Position numbers and translations under genes: made by a program. Below, one piece after another: positions 25,459 through 45,050 of a stretch of DNA of 64,000 nucleotides. A model generated the notes under the pieces. The model made no database searches, was not told where the DNA came from, and was given only the letters and a program-made list of their open reading frames with translations. Position 1 is the stretch's first letter. Each line of letters begins with the position of its first letter. This stretch comes from Planctomycetota bacterium (GTDB taxonomy: Bacteria > Planctomycetota > Phycisphaerae > Sedimentisphaerales > Anaerobacaceae), in contig JALORE010000029.1 of assembly GCA_025459125.1 (NCBI GenBank), forward strand, positions 1 to 64,000, in the 5' to 3' direction.

Positions 25459-26040
25459 ATGAGAATCGAGTCTCTGGAACAATCCGATGCGGATCTGGTC
25501 GAGGCGGCCCAGCAAGGCCGGTTGGACAGCTTCGGCGTTCTTTACCAACGTTATCACAACCCCATGGTGGCCCTGGCCTATGCCCAGTTGGGCGACAAGC
25601 ATACGGCGGAAGATGCCGCACAGGAGGTCTTCGCCGTGGCCTGCCGGGACCTGCGGTCGCTGCGGGAGCGGGAGAAGTTCGGGCCCTGGCTCGGCGGCAT
25701 CTGCCGGAACGTATGTCGGCAGATGCTCCGCGTCAAGACCCGAGCCACCCCGCTGCCGGGCCGCCCCGCCACCCCGGGCCGGGAACCAGATGCCGTCCCG
25801 GAGGACGGACCGGAGCAACAGGAACAATGGGAAGCGGTGCGGCGCGCCGTCTGGCAGTTGCCGACCGACGAGAGAGAATTGATCGTGATGAGATACTTCA
25901 ACGGGTTCTCGCAGGCCCGGATCTCCGAGGTCCTGGACCTGACCCCGGCGGCCGTCAACGGCCGGCTCACACGAGCCAAACGCAAGATCGCAGAGTGGTT
26001 GGAACACAGTGGTTTCGGGAGTGAATCATGGGACGCGTAA
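25459..26040 (+). CDS. ECF sigma factor (FecR-paired)
   Basis: 193 residues. Region 2 is LYQRYHNPMVALAYAQLGDK with AEDAAQEVFAVACRDL; region 4 is ELIVMRYFNGFSQARISEVLDLTPAAVNGRLTRAK (split here at FSQAR). It directs RNA polymerase to a specific promoter set. The stop overlaps the FecR-type gene by 13 bases, the usual sigma/regulator pairing. Start ATG at 25459; the ribosome site is weak (GACAGG). Confidence 0.9.
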   Translation: MRIESLEQSDADLVEAAQQGRLDSFGVLYQRYHNPMVALAYAQLGDKHTAEDAAQEVFAVACRDLRSLREREKFGPWLGGICRNVCRQMLRVKTRATPLPGRPATPGREPDAVPEDGPEQQEQWEAVRRAVWQLPTDERELIVMRYFNGFSQARISEVLDLTPAAVNGRLTRAKRKIAEWLEHSGFGSESWDA

Positions 26041-27107
26041 ATGACGACCAATGGCTGGACAAGGCACTGAACCAGGCCCTCCACTCGGACGACACGCGGC
26101 CCGATTTCCAGAAGTGGCTCGCCGATCACCCCGAGGCCGTGAACCGGTTCACCGCGCGGACGCCGCTACGGCAGCGCCCGCCCCGAATAAGGAGAATCCT
26201 CATGAACGTTACCGCAGTCAAACTCGCGGCCGCCGCCGTCCTCGCCGTCGCCGCCGTGGTCGGAATCACCCAACTGACGAGCAACCACCAGCCCGCCACT
26301 TCCGCACCAGTCGCCCAGCAGACCCTGATGGGCCCGCTGACCCACCCGTTTGCCGACGGCTCCACCGTAAAGCTGGCCCCCGGCGCCAGCATCCGCACGT
26401 TCGCCGACGCGGGTAAGAGAGGCTTCGAGCACCTCGCCGGCCGGATCGACGTGACTGTCGCCAAGGGCAAGGGCGAGTTCATCGTGACGAGCCCTTATGG
26501 GCAGGTGAAAGCCCTCGGGACCGAGTTCACCATGAACGTGATGGACGAGGTTGCCGCCAACACCAAGGAACAGGTAAAGCTGCTCGCCGTGAAAGTCACG
26601 GAAGGCTCCGTGGAAGTCCGCAACACCCAGGGGGTGAGAACGCTGCGTGCGAATCAGGACCTCGTGGTCGCAGCGAACGCGGCCCCGTACGACTTCAACA
26701 ACGATGAGAGCCTGCCGCAGCCGTTGCGGACCAGGGTTCAGGCGATGGTCGAGGCCCTCCAGGCCAAGGACGGCGCCGCCTGGGTCGCCAACTACAACCT
26801 GAACTACCTGTACCAGCTTGCCAAGGGCCAGGTCGCGTACGACGCCAACCTCTTCGGCGGCACGGCCGAGGACGCCCAGCGCTTCCAGCAGGGGCTTGGC
26901 CACGTGCAAAGCCCCGCGGAGCTGGCCAAGATCGTGGGCGGCAGTCTCAACAGCAGCGATGGCGAGATCTACATCACCGCGATCGTACTCAACGAAGCCC
27001 GCGACCACGCCCGGGGCAAGTGCGTCAACCAGAGCCAGAACCGCACGGTCATCATGAGCCCTCAGTGGCACTTCTTCGACGGTGCCTGGTGGCAGATCGA
27101 CGACTGA
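26028..27107 (+). CDS. FecR-domain membrane protein, putative anti-sigma factor
   Basis: 359 residues: a cytoplasmic N-terminus of about 57 residues (DKALNQALHSDDTRPDFQKW), one membrane helix (VKLAAAAVLAVAAVVGITQL), then a FecR domain (FADGSTVKLAPGASIRTFAD ... GEFIVTSPYGQVKALGTEFT) and a C-terminal region of about 140 residues that includes YNLNYLYQLAKGQVAYDANL. It overlaps the sigma gene by 13 bases. FecR proteins usually bind their sigma factor with the cytoplasmic part and sense an envelope signal. An in-frame second start at 26202, with a much stronger ribosome site, would remove the cytoplasmic part. Confidence 0.85.
   Translation: MGRVNDDQWLDKALNQALHSDDTRPDFQKWLADHPEAVNRFTARTPLRQRPPRIRRILMNVTAVKLAAAAVLAVAAVVGITQLTSNHQPATSAPVAQQTLMGPLTHPFADGSTVKLAPGASIRTFADAGKRGFEHLAGRIDVTVAKGKGEFIVTSPYGQVKALGTEFTMNVMDEVAANTKEQVKLLAVKVTEGSVEVRNTQGVRTLRANQDLVVAANAAPYDFNNDESLPQPLRTRVQAMVEALQAKDGAAWVANYNLNYLYQLAKGQVAYDANLFGGTAEDAQRFQQGLGHVQSPAELAKIVGGSLNSSDGEIYITAIVLNEARDHARGKCVNQSQNRTVIMSPQWHFFDGAWWQIDD
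26189..26204 (+). promoter_or_regulatory. Internal Shine-Dalgarno and ATG in the FecR gene
   Basis: AAGGAGAATCCTCATG: GGAG seven bases before an in-frame ATG (26202) that begins MNVTAVKLAAAAVLAV, right at the membrane helix. The Arg-Arg codons are AGG AGA. One of seven such sites in the window. Confidence 0.55.
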
Positions 27108-27140
27108 TCCCCCTGCTCCATCCGTTCAAGCCAACCCCAG

Positions 27141-27169
27141 GCCGGGCTTCCTGCAAGCCCGGCTTTTTT
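27141..27169 (+). terminator. Rho-independent terminator after the FecR gene
   Basis: GCCGGGCTT, five-base loop, AAGCCCGGC, then TTTTTT. Perfect nine-base stem. Ends the first ECF operon. Confidence 0.88.
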
Positions 27170-27207
27170 CATGCGCGGCCGCGAGAAAATGCAACCGCGC
27201 GAGAACT

Positions 27208-27220
27208 CGTGCATTATGAT
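27208..27220 (+). promoter_or_regulatory. Promoter-like CGTGCATTATGAT before an ECF gene
   Basis: CGTGC followed by a -10-like ATTAT/TATGAT. The same CGTGC-TTAT core precedes the ECF genes at 29966, 38558 and 43261. Confidence 0.45.
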
Positions 27221-27248
27221 AGAGGAAGACCGGCTCCGGAGCAGCGCG

Positions 27249-27857
27249 ATGACGAATGACGCATTCGAGTGCGACTTGGCTTCTCAGGCCGAGATCAGGG
27301 ACGACGACCGGACCATGGTCTGGGCGGCCCAGCGGGACCCGCAGACCGCGGGCAGACTCTATGACAAGTACTATGGTGAGATCTTCGGCTACATCTATCA
27401 CTCCACCCTGGACCGCACCGCGACCGAAGATTTGACCTCGAACGTCTTTCTGGCGGCGTTTCGGCACCTGGGGCGTTACCGCTGGCGGCAGATCCCCTTC
27501 CGCGCCTGGCTCTATCGGATTGCCACCAACGAGATCCGGATGCATTGTCGCCGGCACAAGTGCGACCAGGCCGCCAGCCTCCGGATGCAGCGCGACAGCC
27601 AGGACTGTGCTCCCGCCGCCGGGGAAAGACCGGCGGCCGAGGAAGAGTACCGCCTGCTCCATCGGGCACTGTTGGCGTTGAGACAGAAGTATCGCACGGT
27701 GATCGTCCTGCGATACTTCGAAGGCAAGACCATGGCAGAGATTGCCGAGATCACCGGGGCGCGAGAAGGCACAATCAAGTCCCAACTGCATCGGGGACTG
27801 GCCCAGTTGCAGGAGATCCTGGTGCGGTGGGGTGTTCTGGCGGAACAACAGGAATAG
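27249..27857 (+). CDS. ECF sigma factor
   Basis: 202 residues from the ATG at 27249. Region 2 is YDKYYGEIFGYIYHSTLDRT with EDLTSNVFLAAFRHLGRYRW and RAWLYRIATNEI; region 4 is TVIVLRYFEGKTMAEIAEIT followed by EGTIKSQLHRGLAQLQEIL. An alternative ATG lies at 27216. Only four bases separate it from the following anti-sigma-like gene. It belongs to a different ECF subgroup from the later four. Confidence 0.88.
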   Translation: MTNDAFECDLASQAEIRDDDRTMVWAAQRDPQTAGRLYDKYYGEIFGYIYHSTLDRTATEDLTSNVFLAAFRHLGRYRWRQIPFRAWLYRIATNEIRMHCRRHKCDQAASLRMQRDSQDCAPAAGERPAAEEEYRLLHRALLALRQKYRTVIVLRYFEGKTMAEIAEITGAREGTIKSQLHRGLAQLQEILVRWGVLAEQQE

Positions 27858-27861
27858 GACC

Positions 27862-29037
27862 ATGGACAACCACACGGAACGAATCGAGCAGTACCTTCAG
27901 GGTATCGGCGTGCCGGCGTGCGGCTCCGATCTTCATCGGCAGCGGCTGCGCCGGCAGATTCTGGGAGAAATCGAAAGGAGGCAGACCATGTCTGCACGGG
28001 GAAAAGCATGGCGTATTGCCGCGATGATCGCCCTGATCGGCACCGGCGCCGTCATGGGAGCGGCCGGAATGAAGATGCAACGATACCGTTTCGTCGAAAG
28101 ACAGCCCCAGCGGGGTTACGTGGTGCAGAGCGAAGACGGACGCAACACGATGCTCGTCTCCGAAGTGCACGCGAACACTCCGGAGGAGGCGGTGCAGTAT
28201 GCCGAGAAGCTGGCGATGTTCAAGCAACAGGGCCGGCGGCGACTGGTCGGCGTCGTCGAGACCGCGGTCAACGGCCAGCATGATATGCGGGTGCTCACCT
28301 ATGAGTACCGTCTGCCCAACGGTCAAACGACCTACCTGGGCGAGCGAGATCCCAACGATACCGGGCCCGCCACGCTGGCCAACGAGCGGCTGGAAGCAGC
28401 GTTCCGCGAGATTGACGAACGCAATATCGTGTCCTACGAGCGGGACGTGCAGGGCCGGCGGTTCTCCTTCCAGGCCCGGCAGTTGGTCCTCGACGACGGC
28501 ACGCAGATCCTCCGCGCCTACGGCCGACCCAAGGATGCGCCGGAGCAGGCGGGCCGCGCGTCGGAGATCCTGTGGCACCTGGAACTGACGCTGGAGATGC
28601 AGGGATTGAAGCCCCCGGCGCTGCAATGGGCGGTCTTCGACGAGGACCCCCTGCCCGGGTTCGTAGAACGCCTGGAGCGAAGGCGCAAGACCCTGCCGGC
28701 CGCGGTGAAGGCCGCGCCGGAACAGGAAGAGGTAGCGGCCCGGAACGCCCGGATCTCCGTCAACTGGGATCTGGCCTTCCGCAAGATCACCGCCGACGAG
28801 GCCTACCTGCTGACGCCCGCGCCCCGGGGATCGCACGGCTACACCACGAATGGTCCCGCCGGTCCCAAGTGGATCGTAACCAAGACGGTTATGATCGACG
28901 GCAAGCCCCACTGCTGGTGCGTGCCGGTGGAAGTCAAGGCCGGCAAGGAGATCGCCCTGATTCTGCGGGCGAAGAATATCACCGACCTGACCGGCATCTA
29001 TGATGAAGTCATGAATGCGCCGTCGCCGGAGAAATGA
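27862..29037 (+). CDS. Single-pass membrane protein, putative anti-sigma factor
   Basis: 391 residues. Cytoplasmic N-terminus of about 42 residues with a basic amphipathic helix (LHRQRLRRQILGEIERR), one membrane helix (RIAAMIALIGTGAVMGAAG), and a large extracytoplasmic part starting YRFVERQPQRGYVVQSEDGR. That last motif, followed by a repeat of the form G.R.LVGVVE..VNG, is shared with the 30502-31668 protein, so the two are paralogues. The position right after an ECF gene indicates a role as its regulator. An internal start lies at 27988. Confidence 0.75.
   Translation: MDNHTERIEQYLQGIGVPACGSDLHRQRLRRQILGEIERRQTMSARGKAWRIAAMIALIGTGAVMGAAGMKMQRYRFVERQPQRGYVVQSEDGRNTMLVSEVHANTPEEAVQYAEKLAMFKQQGRRRLVGVVETAVNGQHDMRVLTYEYRLPNGQTTYLGERDPNDTGPATLANERLEAAFREIDERNIVSYERDVQGRRFSFQARQLVLDDGTQILRAYGRPKDAPEQAGRASEILWHLELTLEMQGLKPPALQWAVFDEDPLPGFVERLERRRKTLPAAVKAAPEQEEVAARNARISVNWDLAFRKITADEAYLLTPAPRGSHGYTTNGPAGPKWIVTKTVMIDGKPHCWCVPVEVKAGKEIALILRAKNITDLTGIYDEVMNAPSPEK
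27974..27990 (+). promoter_or_regulatory. Internal Shine-Dalgarno and ATG in the anti-sigma-like gene
   Basis: AAAGGAGGCAGACCATG: GGAGG six bases before an in-frame ATG (27988), just ahead of the membrane helix. Arg-Arg codons are AGG AGG. Confidence 0.55.
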
Positions 29038-29123
29038 AGGCAACCAACGGCTTGACAGGCGGACGCAACGATCGTAGTGTGATTCTCAGGATCGAGCGAG
29101 GGGATCATGGGAAAGGGAATGTC

Positions 29124-29522
29124 ATGAGACGAGCAGGTTTGTTTCTCCGCGTCGGCGTGATGGTGGTCGGGGCCGCTCTGTGCGTGGGAGCGGTAGCGCC
29201 GGTTTCTTCGCCCGGGTCTTCCGAGATCGAGCAACTCCGCCAGGAGGTGGCGGCCCTCCGCCAGCGGATCGAGCTTCTGGAGGAACGCCTGAGGACGGAT
29301 CTGGTCCCCGCCGCCGTCAAGAAGAGCACGGAGAGACCGGACGTGATCAACCCCTATCCCAGTCCGCGCCGCACGCCGCCCAATTGGCGCAGCTTCGAGT
29401 TCAACGGCATGCCCTGCTACATCTGCCCCATTGAGGCAACAGAGAAACCCGACGGTGCGGGCGCAAGGCCGATCCCGCCCCAGGAGTCCCCGGCAGCCTC
29501 CCAAGCGGCAGGCCGCCCGTGA
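29124..29522 (+). CDS. Small exported coiled-coil protein, function unknown
   Basis: 132 residues: signal peptide or membrane anchor (GLFLRVGVMVVGAALCVGAV), a coiled coil (EIEQLRQEVAALRQRIELLE), then a Pro-rich tail with a Cys pair (FNGMPCYICPIE). The start at 29124 is preferred because AAAGGGA precedes it; an ATG overlapping the previous stop (29034) gives a non-signal N-terminus. A promoter-like TTGACA (29052), 17 bases, TAGTGT lies in between. No family recognised. Confidence 0.6.
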   Translation: MRRAGLFLRVGVMVVGAALCVGAVAPVSSPGSSEIEQLRQEVAALRQRIELLEERLRTDLVPAAVKKSTERPDVINPYPSPRRTPPNWRSFEFNGMPCYICPIEATEKPDGAGARPIPPQESPAASQAAGRP

Positions 29523-29545
29523 TACTCTGCCCCAGCCGAAGTGAC

Positions 29546-29673: not shown

Positions 29674-29754
29674 GGGCAATTCTGAGCTTCTCACACAGCC
29701 TCTCAGAAGAATCACCATGGATAAGAGGCTATCTCAGAAGCCGCACGCCGAGTA

Positions 29755-29831: not shown

Positions 29832-29902
29832 GTCCTGAGTCTCCTCCGATTCCTGTGCGAGCGCCTTACAGCCGGGGGGAGAAAAGGGCGACACGGCATA
29901 AT

Positions 29903-29947: not shown

Positions 29948-29965
29948 CATTGGGTGTGAGCGACG

Positions 29966-30505
29966 ATGCTCAAAGATCAGTGGCTCAAGTGGAAGCTCCG
30001 GCGTGGTAGTCAGGAGGCCCTGGCGCGGGTCTACGAGAAGTATGTCGATGCGATGCTGACCCTGGCCTTGGGCCTGCTGAACCACCGCGCGGCGGCCGAG
30101 GACGTGGTGCAGGACGTGTTTCTCTCCTTCGCTCGATCGGCCAAGGACCTGCGGGCGCAGGGGAGCCTGCGCAGCTACCTGATGACCAGCGTCCTGAATC
30201 GCGTGCGGGACAGCCGCCGGCAACGGCTGCGGCAGGCCCGCCGGGATGCGGGGCTGGGCTGCGGTGGCGAAACGCCCGGCCCCGAGGAGGCGGCCATCCA
30301 GGTGGAACAAGCCGTGCGGCTCAACCACGCTGTGGCCGAGCTTCCCGATGAGCAGCGCGAGGTCGTGCTGCTGCGGCTCAAGGCGAACCTGAAGTTCCGG
30401 GAGATCGCCCGCCTGCAGCAGACGTCCATCAGCACGGTTCTGGGCCGGTATCGCTACGGCCTGGACCGGCTGCGGTCGCGGCTGAACGGTGAGGTGGAAC
30501 CATGA
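29966..30505 (+). CDS. ECF sigma factor
   Basis: 179 residues. It opens MLKDQWLKWKLRRGSQEALA, with region 2 ARVYEKYVDAMLTLALGLL and AEDVVQDVFLSFARSAKDLR, and region 4 EQREVVLLRLKANLKFREIA then TSISTVLGRYRYGLDRLRSR. Closely related to the sigma factors at 36825, 38558 and 43261, indicating recent duplications. The stop overlaps the next gene by ATGA. Confidence 0.92.
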   Translation: MLKDQWLKWKLRRGSQEALARVYEKYVDAMLTLALGLLNHRAAAEDVVQDVFLSFARSAKDLRAQGSLRSYLMTSVLNRVRDSRRQRLRQARRDAGLGCGGETPGPEEAAIQVEQAVRLNHAVAELPDEQREVVLLRLKANLKFREIARLQQTSISTVLGRYRYGLDRLRSRLNGEVEP

Positions 30506-31668
30506 GATCGAGAAAAGCAATGGCAGAAACCATCCGCAAGAAGCTCGGCTTCGTGGTCGATCCGCCCCTGCGCGACCGGCTGTTGGCGCACGCCCTGCAG
30601 GAACAGGAACAATCATGGACCAGCCAACCGGCTCCTGCGAAGCCGGGCACAAGGAGAATGATCATGAGGATTTCGACAACCAAGATCGTAGTTGCCGCCC
30701 TGGTCGGCGCCGGCGTGGTAGCCGCCGCGGCGGTGGGCGTGAAGTACCACTATGTGGACAGAGACCCCCAGCGCGGCTATCTCGTACAGAGCGAAGACGG
30801 GCACAGCATGATGAACATCGGCGACGAGCATGCCGCCAGTCCGGAGCAGGCCGTCGCGAGGGCCGAGGAGATCGCCGGGCTGAAGCAACAAGGCCAGCGC
30901 GAGCTGGTGGGCGTAATCGAGATCGAGGTGAACGGGGAATTGGACCATCGGGGATTCAGCTACCGGTACCAGCTTGCGGACGGCCAAACGATCGAGGTGT
31001 ACGAGCGCGACCCCGACAGCGGGGCCCCGGGTACCCTGACCGGCGAACGCCACGCCGAAGCGGTGCGCCTGATGTGCGAAACCAGCGGCCACACGGAAAT
31101 GGTCATGATCGACGGAAGAACGTACCGTGTCCCCGCCGAGGGCGAGGAGCCGGCCGCCTATGAACGTGTCGTGCAGGGCCGGACCTTCGTCTTCGACAAA
31201 CACAGCTTCACCCTCTCCGACGGCACCCGGGTCGCCTGGTCGAACGGGCGGCTCCCCGAGGATGGCGCCGGCCTGATGCCCGGCGCCATCACGGAAGGCC
31301 CCATCGTGAACGATCTGCGGGAGGTCGCGTCCCTGCGGAGGAAGAACCTGCGGCAGTGGATCGCGATCGACGAGCTGACCGCCAACGGCGCCCTGGACCG
31401 GCGCGTCTTCGTGTACCGGTACCAGCTCTCCGACGGCCGAACGACGGACATGCGGGAAGCCGCCGACGCCGCCGCCTTCCAGCCCATCCTCAGCGCCGCA
31501 CAACGGCGAGAATGGGCCCAGGCCAAGAACGCCGGCTTCGGACAGGAGCTCGGCGCCTATGAGCAAGAGATCCAGGGGCACACCTTCGCCTTCACGCGGC
31601 AACGGTTCGTCCTGGGCGACGGCACCGAGCTCATCTGGTCCTACGGCAAACTGAAGGACAACCAGTAA
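30502..31668 (+). CDS. Single-pass membrane protein, putative anti-sigma factor
   Basis: 388 residues. Cytoplasmic N-terminus of about 54 residues with the helix LRDRLLAHALQEQEQS, membrane helix IVVAALVGAGVVAAAAVGV, then two tandem extracytoplasmic repeats. The first starts HYVDRDPQRGYLVQSEDGHS; both contain F.YRYQL.DG, LSDGTRVAWSNGRL in one and LGDGTELIWSYGKL in the other. The ATGA overlap with the ECF gene and the shared architecture suggest it holds the sigma factor at the membrane. Paralogue of 27862-29037. An internal start lies at 30664. Confidence 0.75.
   Translation: MRSRKAMAETIRKKLGFVVDPPLRDRLLAHALQEQEQSWTSQPAPAKPGTRRMIMRISTTKIVVAALVGAGVVAAAAVGVKYHYVDRDPQRGYLVQSEDGHSMMNIGDEHAASPEQAVARAEEIAGLKQQGQRELVGVIEIEVNGELDHRGFSYRYQLADGQTIEVYERDPDSGAPGTLTGERHAEAVRLMCETSGHTEMVMIDGRTYRVPAEGEEPAAYERVVQGRTFVFDKHSFTLSDGTRVAWSNGRLPEDGAGLMPGAITEGPIVNDLREVASLRRKNLRQWIAIDELTANGALDRRVFVYRYQLSDGRTTDMREAADAAAFQPILSAAQRREWAQAKNAGFGQELGAYEQEIQGHTFAFTRQRFVLGDGTELIWSYGKLKDNQ
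30651..30666 (+). promoter_or_regulatory. Internal Shine-Dalgarno and ATG in the anti-sigma-like gene
   Basis: AAGGAGAATGATCATG: GGAG seven bases before an in-frame ATG (30664), just before the membrane helix. Arg-Arg codons are AGG AGA. Confidence 0.55.
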
Positions 31669-31831: not shown

Positions 31832-32221
31832 ATGAAATCACAACCATTGGCCAACGCGGAATTGGCGGTCATGGAACTGCTGTGGCAGAGCGAGCGTCTG
31901 ACAGCCCGCGACATACGCGAGCGACTCTACTCCGACGCGACCAAGGCCCAGCACGGAACCGTCCAGAGACTCCTGCAACGTCTGGAGGACAAGGGTTTCG
32001 TGACGGTGGATCGCAGTCTGTTCGTCCACCTGTTCTCGGCGGCGATCTCCCGGCAGTCCTACGCCGGACAGCAACTGGAGTCCCTTGCGGATAAGCTGAC
32101 CGCCGGGTCCTTCACGCCGCTGATCACGCATCTCATCGAGCACAAGAAGATCTCCCGCGACGAGATTGACCGGATCAGGGCCCTCCTCGACGGACAGAAA
32201 GATGAGGCGGGGCCGGTATGA
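31832..32221 (+). CDS. BlaI/MecI-family transcriptional repressor
   Basis: 129 residues: winged helix NAELAVMELLWQSERLTARD, with the recognition part AQHGTVQRLLQRLEDKGFV, and a C-terminal dimerisation region ITHLIEHKKISRDEIDRIRA. Members bind as dimers to palindromic operators and are inactivated by proteolysis driven by an M56 partner. That partner overlaps here by four bases (ATGA), and two matching operators lie upstream. In planctomycetes such pairs are widespread and usually not related to beta-lactams. Confidence 0.93.
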   Translation: MKSQPLANAELAVMELLWQSERLTARDIRERLYSDATKAQHGTVQRLLQRLEDKGFVTVDRSLFVHLFSAAISRQSYAGQQLESLADKLTAGSFTPLITHLIEHKKISRDEIDRIRALLDGQKDEAGPV

Positions 32222-33585
32222 TGGACCTCTGTCTGAGCATGGGCTTGAGCAACGCATGTTTCGCGCTGGCTCTGGCACTCGCGGCCACGGCGGCGGGAGC
32301 CAAGACCAGGCGTCCTCATCTGGCGCACCTGTTCTGGCTGCTGGTCTTCGTCAAACTGGTGACGCCGCCGCTCGTGACGATTCCCGTAAGTGTGTTCTCG
32401 CCGCCGACGGGTGACGCGGGCGCCGGCGCTCGTGCGTTCGTGGCCGGGGCGCCGTCTGCAATGGGCGATACAACTCCCGGATCCCCCCTGCTGTCCCGTC
32501 TCGCACCGCTATGGAATCGCGTCAAGCCAGGCGTGGCTGCCCTCTGGTTGGTTGGGAGCCTCGTGGTATTGGTCTGGTCGATGGTCAGGGTCTATCGCTT
32601 CGGGCGGCTGTTGACCACCCAGTCGGAGGTGGCGCCGCTGGAATTGCAGCAGGAGGCCGAGCGAATTGCCCGGCGGCTGGGGCTGGCCACCACACCGGCG
32701 ATCCGCACGGTAGCGGCGCATCTATCGCCCCTGGTCTGGTGGGTGGGTGGACGGGTGCGGATCTTCATTCCCCGGGCCTTGCTCAATGAAATGGATGTCC
32801 GCAATTGGCACTGGATCCTGGCCCACGAGCTGGCACATGTCCGGCGGCGCGATCACCTGGTCCGCTGGGTCGAGTGGCTGGCGTGCGTCGGTTTCTGGTG
32901 GAATCCGGTGGTGTGGTGGGCCCAGCGGAACCTGCGGGCGATGGAGGAGATCTGCTGTGACGACCTGGTGCTCTCCCGCCTGCATCCTGCACCGAAGTCC
33001 TATGCGGCTTCCCTCTTCTCGGCCGTCGAGTTTCTTGCCCGGCCGGCGGTGCGCATACCGGCGCTGGCAAGTGAAATCAACAGTGGCAGATGCCTGGAAA
33101 GGAGATTCAGAATGATTGTATCAGCCAACCCAAATCGATCGAGCTCACGTTGGTCGCACCGGTGTGTCCTGGTGTGCATGCTGGCCGTCCTGCCCCTGGG
33201 TCTGGCCTCGGCCCAAGACTATGACGCGGTCGCCCAGCGGCTCAAGGAGGCCGTGACGAAAGGCGAAATCACGCAACCACAGGCCGGCGCCATGATGGCC
33301 GCCCTGAAGAAGGAGGCCGGCCGGAAGCGCAGCCGTGCCGATCTGGCCGCCATCTGGGAGAAGCTGCAAGCCCAGGTGCGGGCAGGCGAGCTGACAAAGG
33401 AACAGGCTCGGGAGAAGATGACGGCGCTCAGGGCCCAGGCTGCCCCGAAAGACGGCAAGGACAAGAAGACCGTCAAGAAGGACGCCAGCAAGAAGGATCA
33501 GAGCCCGGCCGACCAGAACGCCATCTGGGGAGGAATTGCAGGCCCAGGTTCGCGCGGGGGAGCTGACCAAGGAGCAAGCCCGTGA
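32218..33585 (+). CDS. BlaR1-like M56 membrane metallopeptidase with helical repeat tail (frameshifted at 3' end)
   Basis: Reads to 455 residues. Membrane helices lie at the N-terminus (ACFALALALAATAAG; FWLLVFVKLVTPPLVTI) and near VALWLVGSLVVLVWS (approximate). The zinc site is HELAHVRRRDHL with the third ligand in RAMEEICCDD. After RRFRMIVSANP comes a last hydrophobic segment (CVLVCMLAVLPLGLASAQ) and then a repeat domain: YDAVAQRLKEAVTKGEITQP, then AAIWEKLQAQVRAGELTKEQ. There is no penicillin-binding sensor domain. At about 33528 an extra G shifts the frame, ending the protein early. It should cleave the BlaI partner on receiving a signal. Confidence 0.85.
   Translation: MMDLCLSMGLSNACFALALALAATAAGAKTRRPHLAHLFWLLVFVKLVTPPLVTIPVSVFSPPTGDAGAGARAFVAGAPSAMGDTTPGSPLLSRLAPLWNRVKPGVAALWLVGSLVVLVWSMVRVYRFGRLLTTQSEVAPLELQQEAERIARRLGLATTPAIRTVAAHLSPLVWWVGGRVRIFIPRALLNEMDVRNWHWILAHELAHVRRRDHLVRWVEWLACVGFWWNPVVWWAQRNLRAMEEICCDDLVLSRLHPAPKSYAASLFSAVEFLARPAVRIPALASEINSGRCLERRFRMIVSANPNRSSSRWSHRCVLVCMLAVLPLGLASAQDYDAVAQRLKEAVTKGEITQPQAGAMMAALKKEAGRKRSRADLAAIWEKLQAQVRAGELTKEQAREKMTALRAQAAPKDGKDKKTVKKDASKKDQSPADQNAIWGGIAGPGSRGGADQGASP
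33101..33114 (+). promoter_or_regulatory. Internal Shine-Dalgarno and ATG in the M56 gene
   Basis: AAAGGAGATTCAGAATG: GGAG seven bases before an in-frame ATG (33112) that starts MIVSANPNRSSSRWSHR and a signal-peptide-like helix ending LGLASA. It could give a separate exported repeat protein. Arg-Arg codons are AGG AGA. Confidence 0.45.
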
Positions 33586-36824: not shown

Positions 36825-37373
36825 ATGTTCGACGACCAACGACTGAAGTGGAAGTTCAAACGGGGCAGCGATGAGGCGTTGACGCTCATCTATGAGAAGT
36901 ACCTCGACTCGATGCTGACCCTGGCTCTGGGTCTGCTCAATGACGCGGCCGCGGCGGAGGATGTCGTGCAGGATGTCTTTGTCGCCTTCGCCCAGTCCCG
37001 CCGGAGTTTTCAGATGTGGGGCAGCCTCAGCGGTTACCTGGCGACCAGTGTCGTCAACCGCGCCCGCGATTACCAGAGGCGCCGGCGGCGCCACGCTCGC
37101 CTGGGTCCGGAGTTGCATACCGGCGCCGAGCCGGCGGACCCCGGGCAGGCGGTGATCCTCAGCGAGCAGGCGCGTCTGCTCCAGGAGGCGGTCGCCCAGT
37201 TGCCCGACGAGCAGCGGGAAGTCGTGCTGCTGCGGCTGAAGGCGGACATGAAGTTCCGGGACATCGCCAGGCTGCAGCAGACGTCCATCAACACCGTTCT
37301 GAGCCGGTACCGGTACGGTTTGGAGCGCTTACGATCCTTGTTGGACGGCGAGGTAGAGAAATGGGGTCGATAA
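36825..37373 (+). CDS. ECF sigma factor
   Basis: 182 residues, MFDDQRLKWKFKRGSDEALT, region 2 IYEKYLDSMLTLALGLLNDA then AEDVVQDVFVAFAQSRRSFQ, region 4 EQREVVLLRLKADMKFRDIA then TSINTVLSRYRYGLERLRSL. Nearest relative in the window is the 29966 protein. The stop overlaps the next gene by 13 bases. AGGCAGCCG precedes the ATG. Confidence 0.92.
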   Translation: MFDDQRLKWKFKRGSDEALTLIYEKYLDSMLTLALGLLNDAAAAEDVVQDVFVAFAQSRRSFQMWGSLSGYLATSVVNRARDYQRRRRRHARLGPELHTGAEPADPGQAVILSEQARLLQEAVAQLPDEQREVVLLRLKADMKFRDIARLQQTSINTVLSRYRYGLERLRSLLDGEVEKWGR

Positions 37374-38200
37374 GAAGTATCGAAGAAGCTATTCGGAGCA
37401 GATTCAGCGTTGCCGCCGGTCCGGGGTTGCACGAGCGTGTGCTCGCCCGGGTCCGGCGTGCCCAGGAACAATCCAAGGTGACAACGCCGGCTCCCAAGCC
37501 GGTTACAGGGAGAACCATTATGAGAAGTCCGATAGTCAAACTGGGTATCGCCGCGGTGCTCATCGCCGTGTTGGGTGTGGGGATCATGGAGTTCATCGGC
37601 ACCGGCAGCCCGTCCGGCGTGGTCTGGGCCGAGGTCGCCAAGAATGTGGAGGCAAGCCCGAGCGTCATCTTCCGGGCCAGATCGACCGGTTCGCGCGATC
37701 CGAATGACGACTGGCCCAAGGCCTACAGGACCTTCTGGCGTTCTGCGACGCTCGATCGTGCAGACTGGTATCGAAATGGTCAGATCCATCGTACGATCTT
37801 CACGAATCTGGATACGAAGACCCTGACGGGGGTGCTCCACGATCACAAGAGGTACACCAAGGAAGCCCTGAGCGAGGAGCGGGTCCAGAGCGCGCGAGCG
37901 CAGAAGGGTTGGACCGACCCTCAGGATTTGATCAACATGGCCCTGTCTGTCGAACACCGTACGTTGGGCCAGAAGACGATCGACGGCGTGCTCTGCGAGG
38001 GCATCGAAGCGGCGGGCCCGGACGGCTCTACCGGGCGGATCTGGGTCGCCGTGGAAACGGGCTACCCCGTCGTCATAGAATTCGAGGGCACCAAGGGAGG
38101 CACGCGTACTACGGGCACGCTGGACCAGTTCCGGTGGAACGCGGACCTGCTGGCCGAGGGTATCGAGCCGGGAATCCCCGCCGGCTACGACCCCTTGTAG
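37361..38200 (+). CDS. Single-pass membrane protein, putative anti-sigma factor
   Basis: 279 residues. Cytoplasmic N-terminus of 53 residues with the helix LHERVLARVRRAQEQS, then RTIMRSPIVKLGIAAVLIAVLG as the membrane segment, and an extracytoplasmic part (AEVAKNVEASPSVIFRARST ... TIDGVLCEGIEAAGPDGS). The C-terminal half resembles the lipoprotein-carrier-like fold (outer-membrane lipoprotein/LolA type) often seen in such regulators, a weak similarity. It overlaps its ECF gene. An internal start lies at 37520. Confidence 0.75.
   Translation: MGSIRSIEEAIRSRFSVAAGPGLHERVLARVRRAQEQSKVTTPAPKPVTGRTIMRSPIVKLGIAAVLIAVLGVGIMEFIGTGSPSGVVWAEVAKNVEASPSVIFRARSTGSRDPNDDWPKAYRTFWRSATLDRADWYRNGQIHRTIFTNLDTKTLTGVLHDHKRYTKEALSEERVQSARAQKGWTDPQDLINMALSVEHRTLGQKTIDGVLCEGIEAAGPDGSTGRIWVAVETGYPVVIEFEGTKGGTRTTGTLDQFRWNADLLAEGIEPGIPAGYDPL
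37507..37522 (+). promoter_or_regulatory. Internal Shine-Dalgarno and ATG in the anti-sigma-like gene
   Basis: AGGGAGAACCATTATG: GGAG seven bases before an in-frame ATG (37520) starting MRSPIVKL at the membrane helix. The codons are GGG AGA (Gly-Arg). Confidence 0.5.
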
Positions 38201-38557: not shown

Positions 38558-39124
38558 ATGCGTTCGATGATGGAAGACCGGCTCCTCCTCTGGACGTTCA
38601 AACGCGGCAGCCCCGATGCCCTGCGGCGGGTCTATGAGAAGTACAAGAACGACCTGCTGAAGCTGGCCGTCGCGCTGGTGACCGACGTCAACACTGCTGA
38701 GGACGTGGTGCAGGACGTGTTCGTGTGCTTCGCCCAGTCGGCGGCGCGGATTGGTATCACGGGCGATCTGCGGAAGTACCTGGTGACCTGCGTCGCCAAC
38801 CGGATTCGCAACCGGCGTCGCGATCAACAAAGGCACGAAGCCATCGGTCTCGACGGCGCGGAGAGCCTGGTCTGCGGGTTCCGCCGGCCGGAACAGTGGG
38901 CCATCCTGAATGAGCAACTGCGGCTCCTGAGCGGGGCGCTGGCCCAGCTGCCCTATGAACAACGGGAAGTGGTCAGCCTCCATACGCAGGGCGACCTGAC
39001 GTTCCGCGAGATCGCCGCGATTCAGAAAGCCCCGATCAATACCGTCCAAGGCCGATACCGGTATGGCATGAGCAAACTGCGGTCCCTTTTGAATGGTGAG
39101 CTCGATAATGAGACCGGCGGATAA
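38558..39124 (+). CDS. ECF sigma factor
   Basis: Up to 188 residues. MRSMMEDRLLLWTFKRGSPD: by comparison with its paralogues the ATG at 38567 or 38570 may be the true start. Region 2 is RVYEKYKNDLLKLAVALVTD then AEDVVQDVFVCFAQSAARIG; region 4 is YEQREVVSLHTQGDLTFREI then PINTVQGRYRYGMSKLRSLL. The stop overlaps the following gene by 17 bases. Confidence 0.9.
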   Translation: MRSMMEDRLLLWTFKRGSPDALRRVYEKYKNDLLKLAVALVTDVNTAEDVVQDVFVCFAQSAARIGITGDLRKYLVTCVANRIRNRRRDQQRHEAIGLDGAESLVCGFRRPEQWAILNEQLRLLSGALAQLPYEQREVVSLHTQGDLTFREIAAIQKAPINTVQGRYRYGMSKLRSLLNGELDNETGG

Positions 39125-40334
39125 CATAAAGCGCTTCATCGACAAGGCAGCGGTCAGCACCCATCCCCACGCGGACGAAGCCGTGCTGGAGGCGGTGCTG
39201 GCCGCCCAGAGGAAGGCAACAGACAAGACCTCGGCCGCCACCCGGCCGAGCCTGAGGAGTATTGCTATGAGAAGTCCCATCACAACCCTGGCCGCGGCGG
39301 CTGTCGTCGTGGCGGCCGTGGTGCTATTCATCGGCCTCTGGGACAAGTCGGCCCCGGCGGCTTATGCCCTCGACATGACGATCGAGGCCAATCAGAGCGT
39401 TCGCTGGCTGCACATCAAGAACTTCACGATCGGTCATGCCGAACCCCGGGAGGGGTGGATCGAATTCGGCGCGGATGGGCAGGCCCGCCGGGCACGCTCG
39501 CAAGTGCCGGACTGGGCCAGCCCCGTGGAGGGCGCCTGGGTGCTCGCCTGGAAGGACGACACCGTGCAAAGGTGGACCAAGAAAGAGAACCGGCTGATGA
39601 TCGCGAAGGCGGGCAATGTACGGGAGCAACTGACCGCCGTGCTGCAAGAGCTCGACCCCAGGCAGATCGTCGCCCACATTGCCGACCTGGAGCAACGGGG
39701 CCAGGTCGAGATCGTCACCGAGGAGCCGCCCGACAAAACCAAGCCGATCGTCGTGACCGTCACGTACCTGCCCGGCAGCGACAAGCCCGGCCGGCGCAAG
39801 GTCCTGGCCGTCGATCCGGTGACGAAGCTCGTCAACACGATCGGGCTCTACGAGTTCCAGGATGGTCAGTACCGTCAGGAAGGCACGATCGAGTTGCGGG
39901 AGTACAACCAACCGATTGACCCCAAGAGGTTCGACCTGACCAGCGAGGCGCCCCCGAGCGCGCAACGTCTCGACCTGTCGGCCACGAACCTCGGCTTTCC
40001 CCAGGGCCTGCTCAATGATGAGCAGGCGGCCACGGAAACGGTCCGCGCCTTCTTCGAAGCCCTGATCGATCAGGACTACGAGGAGGCCGGCCGACTGATC
40101 CCCATCGGTACCGCCGCCCTGAAGGAGCACTTCGGCAAGGCGAAGGTCCTGCGGATCGTCTCCGTCGGACCGGCGACGCCCACGGCCCAATCGCAGGACA
40201 AGGAACTGACCGTACCCTGCACGATCGAGTACGAGGAGGACGGCAAGAAAGCCACGATCACGCTCCAGGGTATCCGGGTCGGGGAGCTGCCCCAACAGCC
40301 GGGCCGCTGGATCATCCAAACCCTCGGGGACTGA
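39108..40334 (+). CDS. Single-pass membrane protein, putative anti-sigma factor
   Basis: 408 residues from the ATG at 39108. Cytoplasmic N-terminus of 53 residues with HADEAVLEAVLAAQRK, membrane segment ITTLAAAAVVVAAVVLFIGL, then an extracytoplasmic region. The latter has a LolA-like beta-sheet pattern (VRWLHIKNFTIGHAEPREGW ... VLAVDPVTKLVNTIGLYEF) and a C-terminal NTF2-like segment (TETVRAFFEALIDQDYEEAG). It shares the RSPIT-LAAAA pre-membrane motif with its paralogues. An internal start lies at 39267. Confidence 0.75.
   Translation: MRPADNIKRFIDKAAVSTHPHADEAVLEAVLAAQRKATDKTSAATRPSLRSIAMRSPITTLAAAAVVVAAVVLFIGLWDKSAPAAYALDMTIEANQSVRWLHIKNFTIGHAEPREGWIEFGADGQARRARSQVPDWASPVEGAWVLAWKDDTVQRWTKKENRLMIAKAGNVREQLTAVLQELDPRQIVAHIADLEQRGQVEIVTEEPPDKTKPIVVTVTYLPGSDKPGRRKVLAVDPVTKLVNTIGLYEFQDGQYRQEGTIELREYNQPIDPKRFDLTSEAPPSAQRLDLSATNLGFPQGLLNDEQAATETVRAFFEALIDQDYEEAGRLIPIGTAALKEHFGKAKVLRIVSVGPATPTAQSQDKELTVPCTIEYEEDGKKATITLQGIRVGELPQQPGRWIIQTLGD
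39254..39269 (+). promoter_or_regulatory. Internal Shine-Dalgarno and ATG in the anti-sigma-like gene
   Basis: GAGGAGTATTGCTATG: GGAG seven bases before an in-frame ATG (39267) starting MRSPITTLAAAAVVVA. The codons are AGG AGT (Arg-Ser). Confidence 0.55.
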
Positions 40335-40363
40335 CCCCCCTTCCCACAGGCCACGTCGTCTCC

Positions 40364-40397: not shown

Positions 40398-40411
40398 GCG
40401 CGGGAAATGTA

Positions 40412-40865: not shown

Positions 40866-42941
40866 ATGTGTGGCCTTACCGCGCTGCTGTGCGCGCTCCT
40901 TCTGGCCTCCTCCGGGCGGGCCGCGATCACGATCGAGGGGGTCACGGACAAGAAGGTCTACGCGGACCGCGTCTCTTTTGTCGTCCGCGCGGAGGCGGGC
41001 TTCGAGACGACGGCCGAGCTCAATGGCAAACCGGTGGCCACGGATATCTCTATGAAGGTGGAGGAGCCGGAATACTACGAATTGAACGTGCACAAGCTGT
41101 CGCGGGTCGCGCGGACGCAGGAGAGCCGGCTGGTGCGCTTCATCGTCCGCGCGAGCGACCGGGGCAACTCGGAGTGGGGCCTGCCGCGTTGGACACCCTA
41201 TCCGACGATCGCTTCCGCGGCCGCCGAGTTCACGGGCGCCCGCCTTATGGTTGTGACACCCGCTCAGTACCCCCCGGGACTGGAAATCCCGGTGATTGCC
41301 CGAATCGAGGACGCCTCCGGCCGGCGTGTCGGCGTCAACGGCAGACTCACGGCTCCCGGTTTCCCGAATCAACCGCTATCGCTTCTGCGCGGAGTCGGAT
41401 CGGTCTTTCTGCCCGCCGCCCGCGAGCCGAATACCATCTCCTACACCGCCGGAATCCACGCGCTGGCGGTGACCAGGAGAATCGCCATCGAGAAGGCCAC
41501 GAAGTGGCGCATCATTCGCGCCGGCGATGTCAGCGCCACGGACTGGGGCGAAAACGCGCGGATTCGCATCACGGGTGATCTGACCATTCCTGCGGGGGCT
41601 ACGTTGACCATCGGCAGCGGGAGCGTGATCGTGATCGATCCGGGTATCGCCCTAGCGGTCGAGGGCCGGATCGTGGTCAATGGAACCACGGAGCGGCCGG
41701 TGGTCTTCACCTGCCAGGATCGCAAGGTCCCCTGGGGCGGGCTGGTCTTCGAGAAGAGCACCTCCCGCGGGGACTTCACCGGCACAATCTTCACCGGCAG
41801 CGGCGCCGACCCGGTCTGGTTCGATCATAACCCCGGCCACGGCAGCAGTCACCGGCACGACGAATGCCTGCTGTATCTCGCCAACGGCGCCAACGTGACG
41901 TTGACCGACTGCTGGCTCATCGAGAACCACGGCCAGGCGGGACATGGGGAGAAGGCCTTTCTCACCATGACCCGCTGCCTCGTACAGAAGTGCGTCACCG
42001 GCGGCCAGTACAACGGCGGTGCCCTGACTCTCACGGACTGCGCCCTGATCGAGTTCCCCGCGGCGACGGCCCCCTACACCGACGGTGACAACGACGGTCT
42101 CTACCTGACCGGCGGGACCAACCTATTCACGGACTGCCTGATCGGCTGGTCGCTGGACGACGGGATTGACGCAGGCGGCAGCAGCGCCGGTGCGGTGACC
42201 GTCCGCCGCTGCTGGTTCGAAGCGTCGTATCACGAGGCGACGGCGTGGTCGGGCACCCGGATGCGCACGGCGATCGACTGCGTCGCGCTCAACTGCGGTC
42301 AGGGATTCGAGTGCGGCTACGAGGCCCCGGACGTGAACACCGTCCACTGCCTCAGCACCGCCAACCTCGTCGGCGCCCGCTTCGGCGACAACTACGACTG
42401 GACCTACAAGGGTTTCCTGACGGTCCGCAACTCGCTGCTCTTGTTCAATCACCGGGACCTCTGGGGCCGGGCCTGGGACAACTGGACCGTCCACGTGTCG
42501 CAAATGGACGTGCGGGACAACTACCTGACGGTCCTGGACAACGATTTCCTCGACAATCAGCTCTGGTATCCGCAGGCCGACCCGCGCCAGTTGGATGCGC
42601 TGGCCTTTTTCCTGCCGACTCCCGCCGACCCGGTGGGCCTCGGCCTGGCCGTCCGGGAGGACACACTCGACCCGGCCGCCCTTGCCCAGGGGATTCCCGT
42701 GCGGCTGAGCACCTTCACGATCAATCCGGTGGCGGTCGACTACACCATCGCCACGGCGCAGGGCCCCCTGACTATCGGTATCCTGCATTTCGCGCCGGGT
42801 GAGACGGTGAAACAGATCCCCTGCGCAGGTCTTGACCTCCAGAACCTGAATCCGGTCGAGGTGACCCTGAGCAGTCCGGTCAATGCCGAGTTGACCGGGC
42901 GGCGCCGGATCACCTTTCAGGACTCGCGCGGCAACCTGTAG
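40866..42941 (+). CDS. Secreted right-handed beta-helix protein
   Basis: 691 residues from the ATG at 40866, which starts a clean signal peptide (MCGLTALLCALLLASSGRA). Earlier in-frame ATGs at 40764 and 40773 would give a long basic N-region, so the start is uncertain. Residues 30-210 look like beta-sandwich domains (ITIEGVTDKKVYADRVSFVV); the rest is beta-helix with short coils (LTIPAGATLTIGSGSVIVID; GGALTLTDCALIEF; AGAVTVRRCWFEA). It resembles exported polysaccharide-binding or lyase-like proteins, but no catalytic set was identified. The stop codon TAG is part of a GTAGGG repeat. Confidence 0.75.
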   Translation: MCGLTALLCALLLASSGRAAITIEGVTDKKVYADRVSFVVRAEAGFETTAELNGKPVATDISMKVEEPEYYELNVHKLSRVARTQESRLVRFIVRASDRGNSEWGLPRWTPYPTIASAAAEFTGARLMVVTPAQYPPGLEIPVIARIEDASGRRVGVNGRLTAPGFPNQPLSLLRGVGSVFLPAAREPNTISYTAGIHALAVTRRIAIEKATKWRIIRAGDVSATDWGENARIRITGDLTIPAGATLTIGSGSVIVIDPGIALAVEGRIVVNGTTERPVVFTCQDRKVPWGGLVFEKSTSRGDFTGTIFTGSGADPVWFDHNPGHGSSHRHDECLLYLANGANVTLTDCWLIENHGQAGHGEKAFLTMTRCLVQKCVTGGQYNGGALTLTDCALIEFPAATAPYTDGDNDGLYLTGGTNLFTDCLIGWSLDDGIDAGGSSAGAVTVRRCWFEASYHEATAWSGTRMRTAIDCVALNCGQGFECGYEAPDVNTVHCLSTANLVGARFGDNYDWTYKGFLTVRNSLLLFNHRDLWGRAWDNWTVHVSQMDVRDNYLTVLDNDFLDNQLWYPQADPRQLDALAFFLPTPADPVGLGLAVREDTLDPAALAQGIPVRLSTFTINPVAVDYTIATAQGPLTIGILHFAPGETVKQIPCAGLDLQNLNPVEVTLSSPVNAELTGRRRITFQDSRGNL

Positions 42942-43054
42942 GGTGTGCGGTGCACACCTTTTCCATGGGCAGGGATCGGACGCTCATCGTGAGAACAGGG
43001 TAGGAACATCTCCCGGCTTTCACAGTCGGCGATGGTGTGCACAGCACACCCTAC
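42938..43054. repeat. GTAGGGTGTGC inverted-repeat element
   Basis: Perfectly complementary ends GTAGGGTGTGC and GCACACCCTAC enclose 95 bases; each end also has a nearby shorter dyad (GGTGCACACC; GGTGTGCACAGC). It begins inside the last codons of the beta-helix gene, whose TAG stop it provides. Confidence 0.75.
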
Positions 43055-43073
43055 AAGTGACTACAGACCAATC

Positions 43074-43161
43074 GGGTGGCAGCCTCAAGGCCGCAGGCCG
43101 TGGGGATGGTCCATGGCACAGGCAATCCGCCATCGCCAAGCGGCGCTTGACGATGCCACCC
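43074..43161. repeat. GGGTGGC palindromic element, copy 3 (upstream of ECF gene)
   Basis: An 88-base element with short ends GGGTGGC / GCCACCC and a long core shared with copy 2 (AAGGCCGCAGGCC; CACAGGCAATCCGCCATCGC). It ends 99 bases before an ECF start. Together with the repeat at 42938-43054 it fills most of the 319-base gap; nothing else is seen there except the promoter. Confidence 0.75.
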
Positions 43162-43210
43162 GGACAGTCCTGAGCGTCTTCCACACGCTCGTAGAGGAAG
43201 CCGGGCGGGT

Positions 43211-43223
43211 CGTGCGTTATATT
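43211..43223 (+). promoter_or_regulatory. Promoter-like CGTGCGTTATATT before an ECF gene
   Basis: CGTGC followed by TTATAT/TATATT, matching the core before the other ECF operons; the -35 side (AGGAAGCC) is only loosely similar. Confidence 0.4.
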
Positions 43224-43260
43224 GGTGAGTATTCGCGGTTCTGACGTTCGGGCGCCGGCG

Positions 43261-43818
43261 ATGATGCTCGAAGATCGATATCTCGTGTGGAAGCTCAAGC
43301 GGGGCAGCGCGCAGGCTCTGTGCCGGATCTATAACCGCTACGAGAACGATCTGCTGACGCTGGCGACGAACCTGCTGGGCAGGACAGGGCTGGCGGAGGA
43401 TGTCCTGCAGGACGTATTCGTGAAGTTTATCGAGTCGATCGACACCTTCGAGCTGACCGGCAGTCTCAAGGGCTATCTGGCGACCTGCGTGGCCAACCGG
43501 GCCCGGGATTATCTGCGAAAGGGCCGGGGACGTGCCGGTGAGACGATGGCGGAGGGCGGCGGGCGGGTTGCGGAGTATGGAGTCGCGCCCAGTCCGGTCG
43601 AATGCGCGATCGCCGGCGAAGAGCGGCAGCGGGTCGTCGCCGCCCTGGCCGAGCTGCCGGGCGAGCAGCGGGAAGCCGTGCTGCTGCACCTGCAGGGTGG
43701 CTTGAAGTTCCGCGAGATTGCCAGCATTCAAGATGTCGCCGCCAAGACGGCGGAAAGCCGGTACCGGTACGGAATCGAGAGACTGCGGTTTTTGCTCAAT
43801 GGTCAGGTGGAAACATGA
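43261..43818 (+). CDS. ECF sigma factor
   Basis: 185 residues from the ATG at 43261 (a second ATG follows directly). MLEDRYLVWKLKRGSAQALC is the paralogue-type opening. Region 2 is RIYNRYENDLLTLATNLLGR then AEDVLQDVFVKFIESIDTFE; region 4 is EQREAVLLHLQGGLKFREIA then KTAESRYRYGIERLRFLL. The stop overlaps the following gene by ATGA. The far-upstream TTG start is not supported. Confidence 0.92.
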   Translation: MMLEDRYLVWKLKRGSAQALCRIYNRYENDLLTLATNLLGRTGLAEDVLQDVFVKFIESIDTFELTGSLKGYLATCVANRARDYLRKGRGRAGETMAEGGGRVAEYGVAPSPVECAIAGEERQRVVAALAELPGEQREAVLLHLQGGLKFREIASIQDVAAKTAESRYRYGIERLRFLLNGQVET

Positions 43819-45050
43819 AACGTGCCCGTGAGGTCGAGAGGATCGTCAAGGATCTGCACCAGGCGGCCGAGGCCGAAACCCACGACCGCATCCTGAACCG
43901 CCTGCTCAACGTTCTCAACCAACACCAGAAGCTGTCTCCGGCTGCCAACCAGCCGACGTTAAGGAGAATCGTCATGAAAAGTCCTATTACCAGACTGGCC
44001 GCGGCGGCGGTCGTTGTTCTGGCCCTTGTATTGTCCGTCTCGTTATTCGTGACCTCCACCCCTTCGGCGTCCGCCGCAGAGGTCTTCTACCAGGCGGCCC
44101 AGGCCATGGGGAGGATGACGTCCTTCCATATCCGCGTGGAGATGCGCACGCCGCCCGGCGACAACTTCGCCCACATCGGCCTGGATTATGACTTTGTGAC
44201 CATCGACTTCTGGAAGCAGTTCACCGAGGACGAATGGGGCAAGTGGCGGCTGGAATCGCCCGGCCGGATCGTCGTCATGGACGGCCAGAAGTCAATCATG
44301 CTCTCGAAGCCCGAGCACGTCGTGGAGTCGGTCGACCGGAATCCGGAGCGGTACTGGCGGGAAAGCCTCGTGCAGGCCGGCGCCGTCATGACGCGGGAGG
44401 CCCAGCATGCCGCGGAGCGTCCCGCGGACTTCTCCACGCACCGCGAACCCGGGGCCGACGGCCGCGACAAGATCGTCATCGCGGTCGAAGCCCCGGCCCG
44501 GGTGGCCGAAGGAGACTACCTGCGGAACAAGTACATCGAGGACTCCGACCATCTCAAGGTCTACTCCTTCGACGCCGAGACGAAACTGCTGGAGGATCTG
44601 CAGATCTTCGTCCATGCCGGCGGCAAGGATGTCCTCGTCTACCGCCTGGTCCGGGCCGAATACAACGTCGCTCTCGATCCGCGTCTGTTCCGCCTGGAGT
44701 TGCCCCCCAACGCGATCTACTACAAACCGCTGGAGGTCCTCCCGGACAATGCGAAACATGAGAACATGACGCCCAAGGAGGCCGCCACGGCGTTCTTCAC
44801 GGCCTGCGCCAGCGAGGACTGGGATGAAGCGCTCAAGTTCATGAACCAGACCCGCGTCTCGCAGCGCTTCAAGGACTACCTGGGCAGCCTGGAGATCATC
44901 GAGATCGGCGAGCCCTTCCAGTCGGGGAGCTATGCCGGCTGGTTCGTACCCTATCAGCTCCGCCTGAAATCGGGGGCTCTCAAGAGCCAGAACCTCGCCT
45001 TGGTGAAGGACCCCAGCGCCAACCGCTTCGTGTACGACGGCGGGATTTGA
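43815..45050 (+). CDS. Single-pass membrane protein, putative anti-sigma factor
   Basis: 411 residues. Cytoplasmic N-terminus of 53 residues with THDRILNRLLNVLNQHQ, membrane segment ITRLAAAAVVVLALVLSVSL, then AAEVFYQAAQAMGRMTSFHI leading a LolA/MucB-like extracytoplasmic domain, and a C-terminal NTF2-like segment (TPKEAATAFFTACASEDWDE). Same layout as 39108-40334. Overlap with the ECF gene and a following terminator make a closed two-gene operon. An internal start lies at 43974. Confidence 0.75.
   Translation: MKRAREVERIVKDLHQAAEAETHDRILNRLLNVLNQHQKLSPAANQPTLRRIVMKSPITRLAAAAVVVLALVLSVSLFVTSTPSASAAEVFYQAAQAMGRMTSFHIRVEMRTPPGDNFAHIGLDYDFVTIDFWKQFTEDEWGKWRLESPGRIVVMDGQKSIMLSKPEHVVESVDRNPERYWRESLVQAGAVMTREAQHAAERPADFSTHREPGADGRDKIVIAVEAPARVAEGDYLRNKYIEDSDHLKVYSFDAETKLLEDLQIFVHAGGKDVLVYRLVRAEYNVALDPRLFRLELPPNAIYYKPLEVLPDNAKHENMTPKEAATAFFTACASEDWDEALKFMNQTRVSQRFKDYLGSLEIIEIGEPFQSGSYAGWFVPYQLRLKSGALKSQNLALVKDPSANRFVYDGGI
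43961..43976 (+). promoter_or_regulatory. Internal Shine-Dalgarno and ATG in the anti-sigma-like gene
   Basis: AAGGAGAATCGTCATG: GGAG seven bases before an in-frame ATG (43974) starting MKSPITRLAAAAVVVLA. Arg-Arg codons are AGG AGA. Confidence 0.55.

Follow-up and report, generated by a model that had tools for sequence, protein, structure and literature searches.

The window analysed here (64,000 nucleotides (nt) of contig JALORE010000029.1, assembly GCA_025459125.1, from a planctomycetotal bacterium of the order Sedimentisphaerales) carries six anti-sigma-like genes, each placed directly downstream of a gene for an extracytoplasmic function (ECF) sigma factor (Sigma70 regions 2 and 4), and one gene with an M56 protease domain that adjoins a BlaI-type repressor gene. 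Within the coding sequence of all seven lies a second start-like signal, composed of a Shine-Dalgarno (SD) sequence and an ATG, and the comparative analysis indicates nucleotide-level selection on this SD-ATG unit in more than 100 receptor genes of a single bacterial order, the unrelated protease receptor included. A first-pass annotation of the window had predicted two products from such genes, a full-length one and a shorter membrane sensor, and this is the reading that best accommodates the codon tests at the SD-ATG unit together with the lower proportion of nonsynonymous (pN) than of synonymous (pS) differences upstream of it: very probably, two in-frame proteins are made, one of them the complete anti-sigma factor (in the seventh gene, the M56 protease), the other a sensor-only form.

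Putative internal start sites in the window

The seven ATGs put forward by the annotation (Table 1) are all in frame with the upstream gene, and in the six anti-sigma-like genes the site stands directly before the membrane helix. The spacing is, as had been claimed, near-constant: GGAG ends 7 nt before the ATG, and at 27988 a GGAGG is followed by a 6-nt gap. The codons proved less uniform than the AGG AGA that had been described as usual; this pair is present at 26202, 30664, 43974 and 33112, and is replaced by AGG AGG at 27988, by GGG AGA (Gly-Arg) at 37520 and by AGG AGT (Arg-Ser) at 39267, a variation that makes the case stronger, because the bases stay while the amino acids change. Over the entire window, in-frame GGAG-ATG pairs number 18 against a null mean of 11, an excess that is not clear, and several of the other pairs look like over-extended open reading frames. 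AAGGAG starts are used by the genome (42 pattern matches versus 0 for the reversed control).

Nucleotide-level conservation of the site

Bacterial internal starts are usually found gene by gene and are often hard to separate from noise. Relatives were found with a profile (A1, built from 16 members), and profile and pattern searches together yielded a set of 129 distinct genes, read in all six frames, from many genomes of the same order, with many members coming from draft assemblies. GGAG lies exactly 7 nt before the ATG in 121 of these 129 genes, whereas a null of synonymous reshuffling (each gene's own codon use, 2000 trials) averages 27 and never exceeds 45. Some SD core is found 4-10 nt before the start in 125. 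The start codon itself is ATG in 125 genes, GTG in 2, TTG in 1 and ATA in 1, and among 36 proteins sharing 22-53% identity with gene 4 five columns are invariant, the internal Met being one. There are departures from the common form: the SD and ATG of L245 and L252 are displaced jointly by one codon with the 7 nt kept, L053 and gene 2 have a slightly different SD spacing, and L038 builds its SD in a different frame (CCA GGA GGT).

The encoded residues vary (WR in 66 genes, RR in 33, GR in 15, RS in 4, WS in 2 and GS in 1), so that W, R or G is followed by R or S, in each case via codons spelling GGAG. That Arg is otherwise mostly encoded by CGN, as the annotation had remarked for the window, holds in the larger set: AGA/AGG and CGN stand at 151 versus 6 at the two site codons and at 753 versus 1969 elsewhere in the same genes (p ~3e-71, a count that ignores relatedness), and at 49 AGR versus 3 CGN (elsewhere 208 versus 1022) when the GC-rich genes are taken separately. 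Orthologues with CGN codons and no SD, which would have counted against the annotation's reading, are not the pattern; four of the six CGN codons at the site are CGG and still spell GGAG, and L048 and L003, where a CGA or CGC codon occupies it, retain neither the SD nor the ATG. A juxtamembrane protein motif (positive charge plus Met) with chance codon use would agree with the positive-inside rule, Arg standing before a helix, and neither TGG, which is part of the SD, nor ATG leaves a synonymous choice; this explanation is nevertheless contradicted by the codon tests (the alternation of residues through GGAG-giving codons and the avoidance of CGN even in GC-rich genes), and homologues without the motif exist, so that we give it next to no credence.

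Predicted mRNA structure (50-nt windows) is weakest at the ATG, where it lies 5.5 kcal/mol above the gene mean, with z > 0 in 97% of the genes. SD-like sequences have been tied to pausing in E. coli membrane proteins (PMC4359368), and, as the site precedes a helix, its codons might be read as a programmed elongation pause that aids membrane targeting rather than as a start. The published pauses fall at codons 16-36 and before the second helix (PMC4359368), whereas the site described here lies near codon 54 and before the sole helix; moreover, a pause requires neither a start codon nor a structure minimum centred on ATG, while the ATG is as strictly kept as the SD, the 7-nt spacing is fixed and both elements shift together. 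We regard pausing as very unlikely.

Information content reaches 1.77-1.93 bits on GGAG and 1.82-2.0 on ATG, as opposed to only 0.45 and 0.23 at the nearby positions -12 and -4. Were the hinge a cassette for recombination or gene conversion, through which sigma-binding and sensor domains are shuffled, its DNA would be kept for reasons other than translation; the fact that several N-terminal types and several sensors join at the same hinge agrees with this, as does the partial conservation outside the SD-ATG unit (CCG at -22 to -20, T at -14). The information content, however, peaks at GGAG and at ATG, the bases that separate them being weakly conserved, the M56 genes keep the SD-ATG while sharing no hinge sequence, and upstream synonymous sites are near saturation in many pairs (pS 0.5-0.8), which together make a cassette very unlikely. 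A promoter within the AT-rich hinge was considered as well, but a -10 element placed there would start transcription past the SD.

In the 19 orthologues of gene 6, the site did not stand out by per-column codon conservation alone (at -3, Arg is AGA in 78%, and the column falls outside the top 15); the signal for an internal start appears in the whole family and in M56 rather than in gene 6 orthologues alone.

The M56 receptor gene

GAA AGG AGA precedes the internal ATG in 10 of 10 M56 orthologues (the window's own included; 53-79% identity to the window copy). Among 44 invariant residues of these proteins, five are encoded by a single codon throughout, three of the five being the adjacent GAA AGG AGA, and Arg elsewhere in the orthologues is mostly CGN. 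The presence of the same layout in an unrelated M56 receptor argues that the feature concerns sensor release and not one protein family. The predicted short product has a preprotein-like start (basic residues, a hydrophobic stretch, then ..LPLGLASA-QDY) and looks like a preprotein with a signal peptide. No Pfam match to a penicillin-binding sensor domain was obtained in the C-terminal part of the M56 protein.

Following the internal ATG, GTA TCA is nearly constant in most of the M56 orthologues (L224-L232) and perhaps belongs to the initiation region. The frame of the window's M56 gene breaks (Table 1) and goes on in another frame to 33904, through either a real frameshift or a sequencing error; several M56 relatives have longer open frames, of up to 675 residues.

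The upstream segment and the first start

The annotation had taken the part upstream of the internal start to be a conserved protein segment in most copies, and the close pairs agree with this (e.g., L133/L130, pN 0.011, pS 0.247), pointing to a translated segment under purifying selection. The upstream start takes the form NTGA, overlapping the sigma stop, in 121 of 128 genes, and is often preceded by GAGGTG. In all 30 pattern matches examined the upstream segment, which comes in at least five kinds, is open and fused; together with pN < pS, this argues that both the long product and the internal start are being kept. Selection at the protein level is seen on either side of the site. The N-terminal part, presumed to bind the sigma factor, matches the NCBIfam 'anti-sigma factor' family NF052375 weakly (1e-3 to 1e-4, below the cut-off).

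N-terminal segments of at least five kinds, a zinc-finger type among them, are found on the same hinge and helix (L020, L058, L203, L212, L218, L219), an arrangement that suggests extensive domain shuffling. At the C-terminus of the sigma factors (e.g., at 37350-37363 of the window), GEV-type residues are often encoded by codons that read GAGGTG and so supply the SD for the anti-sigma start overlapping the sigma gene, a further SD placed inside coding sequence.

Distribution in the genome and in the order

The genome of origin encodes 84 ECF sigma factors above the family cut-off, and at least 23 genes adjoining ECF sigma genes share the same layout, in which a variable N-terminal segment of about 50 residues is followed by xGG AGN NNN NNN ATG and a single membrane helix. 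Zinc-finger-type (zf-HC2-type) N-termini placed on this hinge (L020 and L058) retain the SD-ATG site. No GGAG core with a start codon was found at that place in L005, L007-L009, L024, L028, L032, L046 and L064, which are anti-sigma-like genes of the same genome with mostly zinc-finger-type or other N-termini, some of them showing weak partial SD matches. Profile A1 matches 124 of 161 genomes of Sedimentisphaerales and few genomes in the rest of the class and phylum; the phylum-level matches L253 and L254 also have the internal site.

Sensor domains

AlphaFold models of the proteins of genes 4 and 6 (mean predicted local distance difference test, pLDDT, 82.6 and 77.5, with low confidence in the N-terminal and hinge parts) present two N-terminal helices and a flexible hinge that carries the site; a single membrane helix then leads into a domain rich in beta structure. 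The modelled beta-rich domain matches LolA (4mxt) in both gene 4 (Z 13.6, root-mean-square deviation 4.3, 174 residues) and gene 6 (Z 14.1), as well as RseB (Z 9.8 and 10.8, respectively), and LprG is also among its fold matches; a sequence search of gene 4 against solved structures recovered no relative. The NTF2-like domain of gene 6 has its best fold match in RsgI9 (Z 8.6), and gene 1 encodes a FecR domain (Pfam). The models suggest a long protein resembling a fusion of RseA with RseB, and a short one resembling a membrane-tethered RseB; we stress that a shared fold by itself does not establish function.

Two probable products from one receptor gene

We reason that the two starts very probably divide the labour as follows. 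Start 1, which overlaps the sigma stop and whose own SD is often the GAGGTG encoded by the sigma C-terminus, gives rise to the full-length protein, in which a presumed sigma-binding segment at the N-terminus is followed by a single membrane helix and a sensor in the periplasm. Start 2, a predicted ribosome-binding site inside the hinge codons that precede the helix (GGAG and ATG 7 nt apart, in weakly structured mRNA) and one that we infer to be used in the cell, would yield a short product that keeps this helix and sensor but lacks the sigma-binding segment, and that presumably inserts in the same orientation; through the same layout, the M56 gene would release the C-terminal periplasmic part without the protease. 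Because start 1 would be coupled to sigma translation and start 2 would not, extra sensor subunits could be supplied independently of sigma. Such a surplus sensor may join the full-length anti-sigma factor in mixed oligomers, or bind the signal in the manner of a membrane-tethered RseB, and the threshold for sigma factor release would then be set by the sensor-only form. This threshold-setting role (by mixed oligomers or ligand buffering) is put forward tentatively, as a quite possible one. More tentative still is a general design rule in Sedimentisphaerales, under which each of dozens of unrelated membrane receptors in a genome (BlaR1-like M56 proteases, and ECF anti-sigma factors with N-termini of several types) might also be made as a sensor-only protein, which would enter into one assembly with the full receptor and set its response.

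Several observations weigh against two products. At least six related anti-sigma-like genes of the same genome are without the site (L013, L018, L025, L030/L003, L035, L048), which implies that the internal start is not obligatory and that the proteins fold without needing it; the genes compared are a mixture of paralogues and orthologues, so the counts given above are not independent; and the internal SD is often a bare 4-base core, GGAG (81 of 128). A stand-alone sensor gene with the same start, which would have been proof of that start, was not seen among the 30 pattern matches examined, a negative that also speaks against reading the site as a fossil, left from an ancestor in which the sensor was a gene of its own and had yet to be fused to the sigma-binding segment. 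Such a fossil would account for one SD-ATG-helix module on different N-termini, but decay would be expected at synonymous sites, which differ widely between members, yet GGAG is kept in 94%; we find this origin, as an explanation of the conservation, scarcely credible.

Comparison with known systems

Internal starts giving shorter forms are already known, and it is their spread across a receptor class that is unusual. In the enterobacterial PBP1b (MrcB), an in-frame internal start removes a 42-residue cytoplasmic tail before the membrane anchor and both forms are made (PMC11005335); the likeness lies in the loss of a cytoplasmic part just before the anchor, and the difference in that the PBP1b tail is not a signalling one and belongs to a single gene, whereas here a whole receptor class is concerned and the part lost would be the output domain. 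Two-polypeptide phage endolysins use an internal in-frame start to produce a C-terminal-only subunit (in the example examined in detail, the two forms assemble 1:5; PMC9430671), but are soluble lytic enzymes with no membrane or signalling role, and Cas11b, a second product from an internal in-frame start inside cas8b (PMC11899642), is unrelated in function. The RseA/RseB pair of E. coli (sigma-E control) likewise comprises an anti-sigma segment with a membrane helix and a LolA-fold sensor (RseB), encoded by separate genes in E. coli and fused here, where a sensor of its own would be regained through the internal start. BlaI/BlaR1-type systems are arranged in the same way, the BlaI repressor coming first and the M56 membrane protease, whose C-terminal part is periplasmic, second; the C-terminal part described here differs in not being a penicillin-binding domain and in having a putative internal start. 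A literature search, with most subscription papers outside its reach, returned no report of internal starts in anti-sigma or M56 receptors.

If the internal starts are used, each genome would encode dozens of receptors whose second protein is absent from current annotations, and a further layer of control, with the sensor dose set separately from the anti-sigma dose, would be added to ECF signalling. The genes constitute a natural set for studying the role of sensor-only isoforms.

Gene layout of the window

Six tandem ECF sigma/anti-sigma-like pairs and one BlaI/M56 pair are found within 20 kb of the window (25459-45050).

Table 1. Coordinates of the sigma factor, receptor and repressor genes and of the putative internal start sites in the window.
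Feature	Position	Strand	Remarks
ECF sigma factor 1	25459..26040	+	Sigma70_r2 and r4_2
Anti-sigma-like gene 1, full-length product, FecR sensor domain	26028..27107	+	PF04773 FecR 8.8e-11
Putative internal SD TAAGGAG (GGAG 26191-26194) and ATG 26202, gene 1	26191..26204	+	
ECF sigma factor 2	27246..27857	+	Sigma70 regions 2 and 4
Anti-sigma-like gene 2	27862..29037	+	
Putative internal SD AAGGAGG and ATG 27988, gene 2	27977..27990	+	relative L114 keeps AGG AGA CAA GAA ATG
ECF sigma factor 3	29966..30505	+	Sigma70 regions 2 and 4
Anti-sigma-like gene 3	30502..31668	+	
Putative internal SD AAGGAG and ATG 30664, gene 3	30653..30666	+	
BlaI/MecI-type repressor	31832..32221	+	PF03965 4e-25
M56 (BlaR1-like) membrane protease gene	32218..33585	+	PF05569 3.7e-31; frame breaks near 33527-33540
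Putative internal SD AAAGGAG and ATG 33112, M56 gene	33101..33114	+	GAA AGG AGA invariant in 10/10 orthologues
ECF sigma factor 4	36825..37373	+	Sigma70 regions 2 and 4
Anti-sigma-like gene 4; two N-terminal helices, membrane helix, LolA/RseB-fold sensor (predicted)	37361..38200	+	model and fold search
Putative internal SD GGAG and ATG 37520, gene 4	37509..37522	+	Met invariant in 36 proteins
ECF sigma factor 5	38558..39124	+	Sigma70 regions 2 and 4
Anti-sigma-like gene 5	39093..40334	+	ATG 39108 may be the actual start
Putative internal SD AGGAG (codons AGG AGT) and ATG 39267, gene 5	39256..39269	+	
ECF sigma factor 6	43264..43818	+	Sigma70 regions 2 and 4
Anti-sigma-like gene 6; RseB-fold sensor and C-terminal NTF2-like domain (predicted)	43815..45050	+	model and fold search
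Putative internal SD TAAGGAG and ATG 43974, gene 6	43963..43976	+	orthologues compared

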